This document shows, in pieces, positions 12,087-16,489 of a stretch of DNA of 29,605 bases. The DNA is taken from the IMG/VR virus record IMGVR_UViG_3300025131_000282, positions 1 to 29,605 of that record; one strand, written 5' to 3'. A program made the position numbers and the translations under genes. This DNA is from a virus. The notes below the pieces were generated by a model. The model was not told the DNA's origin, did no database searches, and saw nothing but the letters and a program-made list of their open reading frames with translations. The first letter of the stretch is position 1. Every line of letters starts with the position of its first letter.

Positions 12087-12722
12087 TTATTTAATACTTT
12101 CTGTTGGTATATTAAGAGCTTCTATAACTGCAAATTCAAATACTTTACTCTCATTATCATATCCAATCACTCCATTAAACTTATTTTTTAATTCATTCCA
12201 TCTATCTAATATATCTTGACTTACTGTTATAGTTATCTTTTTATCAAAATCTTCTCCCTTCCCATCTCCTTCAAAATCTTCCCAATTAAAATCTGATAGA
12301 GTTCTAAAGTTTTCTAGCTCTTGTTCTGTGTAAGGTAATGTTAAATCTAAATCATCAAACTCATTACTAATCTCTTTTATTCTTTCAGCTAATTCTATTG
12401 TATCTGTTTCAAATTTAGTTTCGTTGGTCTCTATAGCTATTCTAATAGCCTGTGATTGATTTATTTTACCTAAGTTATAAGTATATACCTTCTCAAATTT
12501 TAACTCTTTTAGAACACTTAATCTGTGATTTCCATTTACCACCTCATAATATCCTGTATCTAATTCTCTTATAAGAATATTTTCTATCTGTCCATTTCTT
12601 TTGATATTCTCTTTTAGTTTCTCTTGCTTTTTATCATCTTCTGTTTTGTAATTCCAATCAGCTTTAACTAATTTGTCTATTGGTACTTCTATGAATCCCA
12701 ATTTATATTTTTTCTTTTCCAT
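12087..12722 (-). CDS. ParB/sulfiredoxin-fold protein next to dpdA
   Basis: 211 residues. The N-terminal domain matches the ParB/Srx fold: GFIEVPIDKLVKADWNY at 9-25, LKENIKRNGQIENILIREL at 36-54, and the nucleotide-binding-type signature VVNGNHRLSVLKEL at 61-74. A following helical part has INQSQAIRIAIETNET and TIELAERIKEISNEFDDLDL. The C-terminal section (about 157-211) has KITITVSQDILDRWNELKNK and an EFAVIEALNI helix. ParB-like proteins next to terminases are common in phages. The start lies inside the 3-prime end of dpdA (34-base overlap), implying co-translation. One option is a role in base exchange like the bacterial DpdB; others are DNA binding or nuclease activity. Function is not settled by sequence. 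Confidence 0.75.
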   Translation of the reverse strand: MEKKKYKLGFIEVPIDKLVKADWNYKTEDDKKQEKLKENIKRNGQIENILIRELDTGYYEVVNGNHRLSVLKELKFEKVYTYNLGKINQSQAIRIAIETNETKFETDTIELAERIKEISNEFDDLDLTLPYTEQELENFRTLSDFNWEDFEGDGKGEDFDKKITITVSQDILDRWNELKNKFNGVIGYDNESKVFEFAVIEALNIPTESIK

Positions 12723-13552
12723 AATTTTGTATAATATATTTGTGCTTGTTGATAAGCGTTAATACCTTGTGATAATCTATATTCTAATTGTTCTCTTTTA
12801 TTCTCATGATGTAATAAATCTATATTAAAACTAGCTCCTATTTTGTTTTTATCTTTTGCTGTTAAGTTTGTTACTTTTCTACCAGTAAATTTTGGTACAA
12901 ACCCATACATAATACCAGCCTTCCAACTTGTGCTATCAACTGAATAGAAAGGATATTTAGACATAACACTATCTTTAGTCATTGCAAAACCATGCACTTT
13001 AATACCTCTATCATAACATTGTTTAATTAGTTTTAGATAAGGTAATCTACTCCTATTGTTTCTATCTCCTTCCAAAGCAACATATTTACTTTCGCTATCT
13101 TCTAACATATCTATATAATCTTTCCAACTCATACAGTTAGGATGATATACAGTAACACATTTTGAGTATAGTTTTTCTTTCTTTAATTCTTCTCTCCATT
13201 TATTTACCAACTCTTGCCCTACTATTTCTCCTATATCTAACTCAGCAAAGTAATCATAGTTATTATAATTCCTTTTTAACCATACTAAATACTTATCAAA
13301 ATACTCTTGTGGAGTTTCTTTCATCTTCTCTTTCTTTTTATGAACTCCTGCTGAAGATATATTTTCATCCTCACTAAAAAATGTATGAGCTCCACTATCT
13401 ACAAATACTAAATCATGATAGATTTTTGCATTTCTTATCTTTTTATCCTCTTTATCAGTTCTCATATAATAGTAAGAATAGAAAGCGTTTAAGATTTCTG
13501 GTCTATGTCTGTAGTTCCAACTTTGTTCTACTCCTGCTAAAAATATTTTCAT
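12689..13552 (-). CDS. dpdA: DpdA-type DNA guanine transglycosylase
   Basis: 287 residues. The protein resembles the TGT-like DpdA proteins of phages, which exchange guanine in DNA for a 7-deazaguanine base. Visible motifs are LVFVDSGAHTFF at 48-59 (counterpart of the TGT DSGGFQ block, with D52 as candidate catalytic acid), YFAELDIGEIVG at 101-112, VALEGDRNNRSRLPY at 158-172, IKVHGFAMTKDS at 184-195, and FYSVDSTSWKAG at 202-213. It is much shorter than tRNA-guanine transglycosylases and I see no four-ligand zinc site, as in other phage DpdA proteins I know. It sits in one overlapping run with CDG-making genes, which strongly supports the call. The subfamily cannot be assigned without a tree. 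Confidence 0.82.
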   Translation of the reverse strand: MKIFLAGVEQSWNYRHRPEILNAFYSYYYMRTDKEDKKIRNAKIYHDLVFVDSGAHTFFSEDENISSAGVHKKKEKMKETPQEYFDKYLVWLKRNYNNYDYFAELDIGEIVGQELVNKWREELKKEKLYSKCVTVYHPNCMSWKDYIDMLEDSESKYVALEGDRNNRSRLPYLKLIKQCYDRGIKVHGFAMTKDSVMSKYPFYSVDSTSWKAGIMYGFVPKFTGRKVTNLTAKDKNKIGASFNIDLLHHENKREQLEYRLSQGINAYQQAQIYYTKLWKRKNINWDS

Positions 13553-14538
13553 TCAAACCATTTTTCTATTTCAAAAGTATAATTACTTTCTGTTTGTTTT
13601 AACTCTCCTTTTAGTGCCTCTTGAACTAATTTGACACATTCATCAAAATTATTATATAAATAATCTTTAGAATAAAATTCAGGATAAACTACTCTATTTG
13701 GTAATACAGGAATACATCCTAATTTAACTGCCTCATTTACTCCTATTCCAAAATTCTCTTGCAACGCAAAACTTACTACCACTTTACTTTTTCCTAATAA
13801 TTTATAGTAATCAGTTTTAGGTAATTTTAAAGAATGAGTATTTACAAATTTAGGTTCTTTAAATGGTTTCTCTAGGTAGCATAACCAGTCATTTGTAATA
13901 GTTTCTTTTAATTTTTCAAATAACCAAGGTTGTTTTTCATCTACATTTCTACCATTAAAGACAACTATGTTTTCTTTTTCATCAGATTTGTATTGCATAA
14001 ATTCTTTGTCGTCTAATGTTTGTCCTGTAACAATTAACTTATCTTCATTTATGATTCTTTTCTTCAATACATCTTTTTTGATAAATTCAGAAAAAACAAA
14101 TACTTTATCTGCTATATCAAAAATAACATCCTCAAAATTCTTTGCCCATCTTTCCATATCTCTAACAAAATCTGTATCAGTAAAACTACCAGCATGTAAA
14201 ACACCTCTAACCTTAACATCTTTCTTACAAAAGTAATTTAGATAGGCAATACTTTCTAATCCAGGAAACCAAATATCAGAAGTAAAAATTATATCTCCAT
14301 CTTCTATTTCTCCTGTATGATACATTTCTGCAACCTTAGCAATTTGTTTACTCTTAAATTCAATTGTAGTAGGTGCATCTAAAAAACTTCCTTCCTTGAT
14401 TTGTCTTGCAGGAATATCAGGATATATTCTTACATATTCTTTTCCACTTTTATCTAGATAATCACAAATGACTTTATCCATATAAACTGTGTATCTCATT
14501 TCAATATGTTCCAGCGGTAGGTATATTATTTTTGCCAT
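13549..14538 (-). CDS. GT-B (GT4-like) glycosyltransferase inside the base-modification cassette
   Basis: 329 residues. The N-terminal half (Rossmann-like) has DIIFTSDIWFPGLESIAYL at 82-100, VRGVLHAGSFTDTDFV at 110-125 and KVFVFSEFIKKDVL at 145-158. The C-terminal half has ENIVVFNGRNVDEKQPWLF at 189-207, then the donor-site block SFALQENFGIGVNEAVKLG at 256-274. E261 and E269 form the EX7E motif of GT4-type retaining enzymes, followed by CIPVLPNRVVYPEFY. It overlaps dpdA by four bases and the T-fold gene by 13 bases. The likely acceptor is therefore a modified base in DNA or its precursor (inference). A cell-surface target is the alternative. No signal peptide or membrane segment is seen. Confidence 0.8.
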   Translation of the reverse strand: MAKIIYLPLEHIEMRYTVYMDKVICDYLDKSGKEYVRIYPDIPARQIKEGSFLDAPTTIEFKSKQIAKVAEMYHTGEIEDGDIIFTSDIWFPGLESIAYLNYFCKKDVKVRGVLHAGSFTDTDFVRDMERWAKNFEDVIFDIADKVFVFSEFIKKDVLKKRIINEDKLIVTGQTLDDKEFMQYKSDEKENIVVFNGRNVDEKQPWLFEKLKETITNDWLCYLEKPFKEPKFVNTHSLKLPKTDYYKLLGKSKVVVSFALQENFGIGVNEAVKLGCIPVLPNRVVYPEFYSKDYLYNNFDECVKLVQEALKGELKQTESNYTFEIEKWFE

Positions 14539-14852
14539 ATTTCTGCTCCATTTTCGTTATCCTCTAATACTTTACAATAATTTAATTCAAATGTTAATAG
14601 TAAATCTTTTGCGATACTTTCGCAACTTAATCCACCAAACTCTTTATCATATCTGCAATCAAGGTATTCTGTTATTTTATTCTTAAACATTATTATTTCA
14701 ATATCTCTATCATCATGCTTTACTTCTTTCTTACAAGTAATATAAAAGTTATGCCTATGAATGTTTTTTAGGTATTCAACTTCTTTTATCCTACAATCTT
14801 TCCAAAAATGAGTACCAGCATATTGTATGTTTACTATTATATTTGTTCTCAC
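14526..14852 (-). CDS. QueD-like tunnel-fold protein of the modification cassette
   Basis: 108 residues, starting at GTG whose last bases form the TGA of folE (GTGA overlap). It is distantly similar to QueD/PTPS: AGTHFW around H15, HRHNFYI with H32 and H34 (matching the HGHNY zinc ligands of QueD), SCESIAKDLL at 76-85 (matching PTAENMAKYL), and a C-terminal VLEDNENGAEI around E97. All three zinc-binding histidines therefore seem kept. The Cys that QueD carries four residues before its HxH (C24) is not in the same place; the nearest is C20, twelve residues before H32. The protein is shorter than QueD, and a separate true QueD is present. It may act on CDG or another pterin/deazaguanine intermediate. 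A CDG decarboxylase role is one hypothesis. Confidence 0.65.
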   Translation of the reverse strand: MRTNIIVNIQYAGTHFWKDCRIKEVEYLKNIHRHNFYITCKKEVKHDDRDIEIIMFKNKITEYLDCRYDKEFGGLSCESIAKDLLLTFELNYCKVLEDNENGAEIWQK

Positions 14853-15376
14853 TTTATTAGATTTAAAAATTCATTCCTCGCATTCAAATCATTCTTAAAC
14901 GCTCCAATCATTTTAGAGGTAGTAGTCCAAGTATTGTGTTTTTTAACTCCTCTCATTTCCATACATAGATGTTTTGCTTTTAATACTACAGCAACTCCTT
15001 GAGGCTCTAATTGTTTTTGTATCTCATTTGCTACTTGTGTTGTTATCCTCTCTTGATTTTGTAATCTCCTACTAAACCATTCTACAGTTCTTGCTAATTT
15101 ACTCAACCCAACTATCTTTTTGTTTGGAATATATCCTACTGTTGCATATCCAAAGAAAGGTGCGATATGATGTTCGCATAAAGAATAAAAAGGTATGTTA
15201 GTTTGTATAATCATTTCATCATATCCTTCACTATCAAATGTAGTAAAGTTAAATTCAGGAGGACTTGTAAATTCCTTTAAGAATTTCAAATACCTTTTAG
15301 GTGTATCTTTTAATCCTTCTCTACTAGCATCATTATCTATTTGCTCTATTATTTTTTTAATATTATCTTCTATCAT
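14849..15376 (-). CDS. folE: GTP cyclohydrolase I (FolE)
   Basis: 175 residues. It converts GTP to 7,8-dihydroneopterin triphosphate, the first step of 7-deazaguanine synthesis. Motifs are SREGLKDTPKRYLKFL at 18-33, FYSLCEHHIAPFFGYATVGY at 63-82 with zinc ligands C67 and H70 and catalytic-type H69, IVGLSKLARTVEWFSRRLQN at 88-107 followed by QERIT, and KAKHLCMEMRGV at 133-144 with the third zinc ligand C138. It lacks part of the N-terminal helical region of the roughly 220-residue E. coli enzyme but keeps the full catalytic core. It overlaps queE by four bases (ATGA). In this context it supplies precursor for base modification rather than folate. Confidence 0.95.
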   Translation of the reverse strand: MIEDNIKKIIEQIDNDASREGLKDTPKRYLKFLKEFTSPPEFNFTTFDSEGYDEMIIQTNIPFYSLCEHHIAPFFGYATVGYIPNKKIVGLSKLARTVEWFSRRLQNQERITTQVANEIQKQLEPQGVAVVLKAKHLCMEMRGVKKHNTWTTTSKMIGAFKNDLNARNEFLNLIK

Positions 15377-16077
15377 ACTCCTGTTGTTTTATTCCATATT
15401 TCTATTTGTAATCTACTTGAATATAAAATTTGATTATCTTTACATATATCTGATACCATTTTGCTGTTTTGTTTTAACATTATTTCATCATCAGCTCCAG
15501 GCATTAAAACTATTTTTTCTTTTTTTAATTCATATTTGTTTATTAGTTCTTGTACCTCTTCCCAATCTTGTTGTTTTGTAATAACAAATTTGAATATAGA
15601 AAATTCGTGACTATTTATTTGTTTCAGAACATCTCTTTTTATTCTTTTATTATAAGGTTCTCCAGAGTTAGATAGTTTAGGACTACAATTAATAAGAGTA
15701 ACTAAATTAAAAAAACTATCATTTAATAATTTTGTTCCGTTTGTTTCCAATTCTACAAATGGCATCATTCCGTGTTTATTATAATACTCCCTTAAAAATA
15801 CTTCTAACTCCTTTTGTTGTAATACAGGTTCTCCTCCTGTTAAAACTAGATGAACTCCTTTTTTAAATAATTCTAAATAGTTATCTTCAAACAATTTCAT
15901 AGCCTCATCATGAGTATAATTATCTCCTTTCTTCCATACCTCTATTGTATCACATATCCAATCTCCTTTACATAAAAGATTACAAGCGGTTAGCCTTAAA
16001 AATACAGAGGGTACTCCCATTGTTATTCCTTCTCCTTGAATACTGTAAAAGTGTTCGCTAATTGATAATCCTTTCAT
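15373..16077 (-). CDS. queE: 7-carboxy-7-deazaguanine synthase (QueE), radical SAM
   Basis: 234 residues from the ATG at 16077, chosen because it starts just before the conserved EHFYSIQGEG block (8-17); a GTG start 12 codons earlier is possible but lies deep in queD. QueE converts 6-carboxytetrahydropterin to CDG using an iron-sulfur cluster and SAM. Visible motifs are the cysteines in ACNLLCKGDWICDT (C32, C36, C42), TGGEPVLQ at 80-87, ELETNGT at 109-115 and SPKLS at 132-136. The third Cys is spaced C-X5-C instead of the usual C-X2-C, a small insertion in the cluster loop. Some QueE proteins are known to have expanded loops, so activity is likely retained. It overlaps queD by 20 bases. Confidence 0.92.
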   Translation of the reverse strand: MKGLSISEHFYSIQGEGITMGVPSVFLRLTACNLLCKGDWICDTIEVWKKGDNYTHDEAMKLFEDNYLELFKKGVHLVLTGGEPVLQQKELEVFLREYYNKHGMMPFVELETNGTKLLNDSFFNLVTLINCSPKLSNSGEPYNKRIKRDVLKQINSHEFSIFKFVITKQQDWEEVQELINKYELKKEKIVLMPGADDEIMLKQNSKMVSDICKDNQILYSSRLQIEIWNKTTGV

Positions 16078-16489
16078 AAGTCGCTTTACATTTTCTAGTT
16101 TCTTCAATATCACATTTTATTAATATACATCCAGTTTCTGCTAATTCATCTATCGCAACTACCTCACAAAGATACTTTGCCATATTTTCTGCGGTAGGAT
16201 TGAAACTTGTTACTATTATATCATTAGGTACTAATTCTTTTAAGCTAGATACTAAATTATCGTGTTCCCATATTAAAAATTTATGGTCCCAATTATCTTC
16301 TAACCAATCACATAATTTAGATTTAATTACACTAAAATCCATTACTCTCCCTAAATGGTCTAATTCAGATGCTAGTATAGTAAAATGAACTCTATAATTA
16401 TGACCGTGTAAGTGAGCGCATTTGTTTTCGTGTCCTGTTACTTTGTGTCCTGCACTGAAGTCATGGTATCTAGTTGCTGTTATTTTCAT
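16058..16489 (-). CDS. queD: 6-carboxy-5,6,7,8-tetrahydropterin synthase (QueD)
   Basis: 143 residues. It converts dihydroneopterin triphosphate to 6-carboxytetrahydropterin. The full set of family motifs is present: FSAGHKV with H15, CAHLHGHNYRV with catalytic C24 and zinc ligands H28 and H30, VMDFSVIKSKL around D51, LEDNWDHKFL around H69, FNPTAENMAKYL at 97-108 and CDIEETRKCKATY around E130. It is the first gene of the modification cassette, after a 48-base gap that may hold a promoter or a tiny leader frame. The ATG at 16489 directly precedes the conserved N-terminal strand. Confidence 0.95.
   Translation of the reverse strand: MKITATRYHDFSAGHKVTGHENKCAHLHGHNYRVHFTILASELDHLGRVMDFSVIKSKLCDWLEDNWDHKFLIWEHDNLVSSLKELVPNDIIVTSFNPTAENMAKYLCEVVAIDELAETGCILIKCDIEETRKCKATYERIIN

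Follow-up and report, generated by a model that had tools for sequence, protein, structure and literature searches.

A short QueD-like T-fold protein, probably a CDG decarboxylase, is linked to a glycosyltransferase in a phage 7-deazaguanine operon

The protein encoded at 14526–14852 on the minus strand of a tailed-phage fragment (a 29.6 kb IMG/VR virus record, analysed over its whole length and called the window below) is, judging by its sequence and predicted structure, a QueD paralogue in which the T-fold metal site and the purine- or pterin-binding Glu survive. Its substrate is likely to be 7-carboxy-7-deazaguanine (CDG), given the genes that accompany it, and we favour, with reservations, a reaction in which it decarboxylates CDG to 7-deazaguanine in the place of QueC. 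The gene content of the window suggests that its probable product is a glycosylated 7-deazaguanine.

The gene lies in a minus-strand run that reads, in order, QueD, QueE, FolE, the T-fold gene, a glycosyltransferase (GT), a DpdA-like protein and a ParB-N domain protein. QueD (16058–16489; PF01242, E 1.8e-25; phrog_2389, 3.8e-46) shows a complete active site on alignment (His, Cys, HGH, DH, PTAE and Glu), and the first-pass annotation was right to place a normal QueD in the run. QueE, the radical SAM CDG synthase (15373–16113), matched phrog_2076 (9e-54) and scored below the cut-offs of the QueE NCBIfam models, and FolE, GTP cyclohydrolase I (14849–15376), scored over the cut-off of TIGR00063 (1e-64). 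Beyond the T-fold gene come the GT4-fold GT (13549–14538) and a short-type DpdA-like DNA guanine transglycosylase (12689–13552; phrog_887, 2.9e-29), whose top PDB profile match was the DNA-guanine transglycosylase 7ui4 (E 0.013). Adjacent genes overlap by between a few bases and about 56, and the run appears to be arranged as in a single transcription unit. QueC was not found in the window record, which is a fragment. The ParB-N protein (12087–12722; PF02195, 2.4e-6) lies close to the T-fold gene in 5 of the 93 loci compared below; it is a neighbour, and may at most be a candidate member of the pathway.

The 108-residue reading frame proposed in the first-pass annotation is real and does not arise by chance. 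It starts with GTG at 14852, overlaps the folE stop by 4 nt and the GT gene by 13 nt, and the plus strand over the same interval is interrupted by stops. The protein matched phrog_17812, a PHROG of unknown function (E 3.7e-22), has at least 589 relatives in IMG/VR that came from a profile scan and were confirmed by tblastn, and gave a high-confidence structural model. At E up to 1 it matched no Pfam or NCBIfam family, the QueD/PTPS families PF01242 and TIGR03367 included. By tblastn it occurs in 27 phage records, where its genes are annotated as hypothetical. Carriers include Cellulophaga phage phiST, Acidovorax phage ACP17, Pseudomonas phages Paride and PA5oct and Synechococcus phage BUCT-ZZ01, as well as phages of Rhizobium, Sinorhizobium, Vibrio, Xanthomonas and others. 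A pattern-based scan of 84,980 prokaryotic species returned 13 loci, most of them on MAG contigs whose gene neighbourhood is the same as in the phages.

An AlphaFold model built from a 74-member alignment (pLDDT 96.6, pTM 0.87) has the strand and helix order of a T-fold (beta-beta-alpha-alpha-beta-beta). The nearest solved structures found by Foldseek were QueD and PTPS (E. coli QueD 4ntk, E 7.6e-5), VIA comparison with E. coli QueD gave a Z of 12.6 and an rmsd of 2.3 over 106 aligned residues, and QueD/PTPS entries were also top-ranked when the sequence profile was compared with the PDB (E 0.02 to 0.1). Uricases appeared as distant fold matches. The T-fold proposed earlier from the letters is thus borne out by structure prediction, with QueD as the nearest fold.

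Across 87 members of the family, H15, L28, H32, H34, F36, V44, R49, E52, S76, C77, E78 and E97 are invariant, H46 differs once (it is kept in 86) and D98 twice. H15, H32 and H34 align with the zinc histidines of QueD in the PDB profile alignment, as had been claimed, and are invariant in the set of 74 relatives too. E97, which follows beta 3, occupies the position of the pterin-binding Glu of QueD. The catalytic Cys of QueD, four residues before the HxH motif, is replaced by Leu28 in 87/87 members, which agrees with the earlier remark that this position is altered, and the segment bearing the Asp-His dyad is missing or non-conserved in the alignment. As far as alignment and model can be read, the metal and base sites are kept and the catalytic residues of QueD are gone. 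The earlier phrase "displaced cysteine" holds in so far as Cys is lost from the catalytic position; it does not hold as a moved catalytic Cys, as C77, the sole invariant Cys, sits in an S-C-E motif that aligns with the P-T-S/A-E motif of the QueD base-binding segment. Because of this location, and because the divergent QueD of phage ACP17 also has a Cys at the equivalent position, C77 can be called no more than a candidate catalytic residue. The individual roles of H46, R49, E52 and C77 are ones that we infer from conservation and the model.

Two other QueD-like proteins deserve mention. QueD of ACP17 and phiST (L004:3772-4248 and L005:6400-6894) has HGY instead of HGH and seemingly misses the first zinc histidine, with Cys, Asp-His and Glu retained; by its sequence it seems to be a QueD whose metal site has changed. 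In Mycobacterium phage Bipper, gp4 (L135:2047-2472) is encoded between the gene for the transglycosylase and queD; its HxH motif and E-T ending are reminiscent of a T-fold. It did not match the family of the T-fold protein, and could be a further paralogue of the QueD kind.

Among 28 carriers of the T-fold gene (records or contigs), QueE was present in 27 and QueD in 26. QueC exceeded its cut-off in one of the 28, as a weak partial match (profile positions 133–201, 32.8 bits) in a 258 kb Vibrio phage. The T-fold gene was absent from all 12 phages selected on the presence of QueC (CAjan, phiSM, BRET, HCTV-1, Motura and others), in a search that recovered it in 4/4 positive controls. As QueD coexists with the T-fold protein, the latter is no replacement for QueD; as phages with QueC lack it, it would occupy the next step, the slot of QueC. 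CDG is the substrate of QueC, which makes it the likely substrate here. The role on CDG suggested in the first-pass annotation is thus supported by the presence of QueE and QueD and the absence of QueC among carriers. Replacement of QueC by a homologue was rejected, there being no QueC-like sequence, as was a duplicate working QueD, given the lost active site and the QueD already present. Mycobacterium phage Bipper has been reported to be without QueC (PMC6884629); the T-fold family is absent from it, as expected of a phage that ends at CDG, and this is a weak negative. Faecalibacterium phage Roos (L006) has the T-fold protein and the DpdA type of the window, and no QueD, QueE or GT was detected in its whole record, a gene set that counts against our best explanation.

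Gene neighbourhoods were compared at 93 loci, the IMG/VR part of which comprises the best 80 matches to the family and includes related, non-independent contigs. Three DpdA-like families occur in these loci, never two in one locus. A GT is found with the T-fold gene at 24 of the 29 loci with window-type DpdA and 28 of the 29 with ACP17/X1-type DpdA (TGT profile match, E 5e-5), that is, 52 of 58 combined, and in none of the 32 with phiST-type DpdA, which a profile comparison with the window type marks as TGT-like (E 1.5e-5). The association of GT with DpdA type has a Fisher p of about 1e-18, uncorrected for relatedness. Only one GT family is involved; it shares the strand of the T-fold gene in 53/53 loci having a GT and overlaps or abuts it in 24. 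The model of the window GT (pLDDT 92.2) has a GT-B fold of the GT4 type (Z 23.5). Its Glycos_transf_1 score of 20.8 bits is below the gathering threshold of 26.4, which the X1 copy (45.5) and a Paenibacillus copy (36.9) exceed.

Searches of whole records found the GT in ACP17, Paride, BUCT-ZZ01, Phosso and X1, and in 0/6 phiST-type phages and 0/12 QueC phages. Its recurrence in the former, which are unrelated, makes a sampling artefact of a single lineage unlikely. A strict rule that window-type or X1-type DpdA implies a GT fails in six loci: Roos, for which the whole record was searched; L002, a close relative of the window that has the operon with no GT in the interval from the T-fold gene to dpdA; and L049, L053, L054 and L090, which are short contigs or contig ends. 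The link between T-fold gene and GT is strong, with exceptions. Within the literature searched, there was no earlier report of it and no paper on glycosylated 7-deazaguanine.

In the tree of the T-fold protein, many forks of which are poorly supported, the partner sets swap, with 15–17 changes. An independent-pair test on well-supported branches gave 4–5 to 0 (p 0.06–0.13), too small for significance. No active-site residue separates GT-linked from GT-free copies among the 87 members. Partner swapping around an unchanged active site points to one reaction upstream of different endings, and from these sequences a single T-fold reaction seems to feed two of them. As the presence of the GT and the family of DpdA usually change together, the sugar may be attached before insertion into DNA.

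Fused forms and further neighbours were also seen. At L038:7189-8157 and L041:7935-8888 the T-fold protein carries a fused P-loop deoxynucleotide-kinase-like domain; such kinase-like genes occur in 12/32 phiST-type loci and 0 GT-linked loci, a distribution hinting at a step in the nucleotide pool. In Chryseobacterium phage MA9V-3 (L003:7461-8342) the fusion partner of the T-fold domain is an endonuclease VII/HNH-like domain; in Vibrio phage Bakedbeans (L009:7221-8372) it is a stretch of about 260 residues that matched no PHROG. Eighteen loci (for example, L008:3441-3902) have a xanthine-guanine phosphoribosyltransferase-like gene close to the T-fold gene.

The T-fold protein and the phage-type GT also occur together in a chromosomal cluster of Paenibacillus polymyxa ISL-58 (L110:917-13500 and L120:5684-6706), with queE, queD and folE. 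The ISL-58 T-fold protein shares 35 percent identity with the window copy across 121 columns and keeps the invariant residues; its GT is 32 percent identical to that of the window over 331 columns. The cluster also encodes ABC transporters, NDP-sugar genes, a carbamoyltransferase and a radical SAM/SPASM protein. The cluster region showed neither a QueC nor a DpdA of any of the three families. Elsewhere in the genome, the only strong QueC match (E 2.5e-83) is next to a different queD on a separate contig, and a third contig has a second match, weak and partial. ISL-58 was the one genome among 394 Paenibacillaceae with the T-fold protein, and this single case was probably acquired. The joint occurrence of the two proteins, apparently without DNA modification, suggests that the GT acts on the product of the T-fold enzyme. 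By its gene content the cluster is a candidate pathway for a 7-deazaguanine natural product.

We propose the following route. FolE, QueD and QueE of the operon would, as known for their families, convert GTP to CDG. The T-fold protein, in the place of QueC, would remove the carboxyl group to give 7-deazaguanine, with E97 and the S-C-E segment holding the guanine-like edge and the three-histidine metal, H46, R49 and E52 handling the carboxylate and protonation. The DpdA-like enzyme would then, in keeping with its family, put the product into phage DNA in exchange for guanine. The base, nucleotide or DNA form would receive a sugar from the coupled GT4-fold enzyme, a step that we judge about as likely as not. 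Decarboxylation is the simplest reaction for such a site, and T-fold enzymes, namely PTPS/QueD and dihydroneopterin aldolase, are known to cleave C–C bonds on related rings. Counting against it, we encountered no T-fold decarboxylase with a solved structure; and if the base is decarboxylated, nothing obvious except C7, N2 or O6 is left as the acceptor for the GT. Of the guesses in the first-pass annotation, decarboxylation and preparation for glycosylation, both fit; the linkage to a GT was found, and decarboxylation we infer.

CDG might instead be altered without simple decarboxylation, for example by an oxidative step (metal and O2) that leaves a 7-hydroxy group, or by another step that makes a handle for the sugar. 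The three-histidine metal site, the precedent of the uricases as T-fold oxidases, the coupling to the GT across two DpdA types and the matching GT in Paenibacillus all suit this alternative. However, the phiST-type loci share the invariant residues and have no GT, which argues against a sugar handle as the common purpose, and we consider this alternative unlikely. To about the same slight degree, we entertain a non-catalytic base-binding or carrier subunit that passes CDG to DpdA or the GT, or that regulates the often-adjacent FolE; the small size of the protein and the frequent overlap of its gene with folE, GT or dpdA would fit. Invariant metal ligands, R49, E52 and C77 and a near-invariant H46 nevertheless suggest catalysis, the protein is kept in the Paenibacillus cluster although no DpdA was seen there, and its fusion partners differ in other phages. 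Least probable is a second 6-carboxytetrahydropterin synthase or other PTPS-type enzyme that has QueD activity, be it ordinary or weak: the fold and metal ligands are those of QueD, but Leu replaces Cys throughout the family, the Asp-His dyad is not conserved, the PTPS profile is unmatched, and most carrier records also encode a QueD.

Phage DNA is known to contain several 7-deazaguanine derivatives, and to our knowledge none of them bears a sugar. If CDG decarboxylation followed by glycosylation is correct, a glycosylated purine would join the list of phage DNA modifications, the T-fold would gain a decarboxylase, and a route to a 7-deazaguanine natural product would be at hand. Tentatively, and at somewhat below even odds, we suggest that the T-fold enzyme and GT form a movable module for glycosylated 7-deazaguanine, delivered to DNA via two DpdA families and put to an apparently DpdA-free use, in a small-molecule gene cluster, by at least one Paenibacillus. 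Enzymes for testing are now named in the isolated phages ACP17, Paride, BUCT-ZZ01 and X1, beyond metagenomes.

How does this system compare with known ones? Cui et al., reportedly in Nucleic Acids Research in 2023, predicted the phage protein DpdL to be a CDG decarboxylase, and 7-deazaguanine is said to have been described in phage DNA. The T-fold protein is likely to be of the DpdL kind, as its genomic setting (folE, queD, queE and dpdA, with no queC) is the one to be expected of DpdL. Two carriers found here, phiST and ACP17, are reportedly among the phages of the DpdL work; we know of no GT linkage described there.

The phage systems that bear QueC (9g, CAjan and Rosebush; PMC6884629) share FolE, QueD, QueE and DpdA with the window, which has no QueC or amidotransferase and has the T-fold protein and GT instead. 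In tubercidin biosynthesis, removal of the carboxylate from a CDG-derived nucleotide has been proposed for TubF, a UbiD-family enzyme (PMC6112128). TubF is an unrelated prFMN-type enzyme that acts after ribosylation by TubE (PMC6112128), in contrast to the T-fold enzyme of the window, which did not match the UbiD profile (Pfam, E up to 1); by analogy, this T-fold-free route counts against a T-fold decarboxylase. The coupled GT has its GT-B fold in common with the GT4 enzymes BshA, MshA and tetrahydrobiopterin glucosyltransferase 9v0w (Z about 20–23), although at about 11–18 percent identity. With E. coli QueD (4ntk, 4ntm) the T-fold protein shares the T-fold topology over 106 residues, the three zinc histidines and the base-binding Glu. 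In contrast to QueD, it is shorter, matches no PTPS profile, lacks the catalytic Cys and the Asp-His dyad, and has new invariant residues of its own in L28, R49, E52 and C77, with H46 nearly so.
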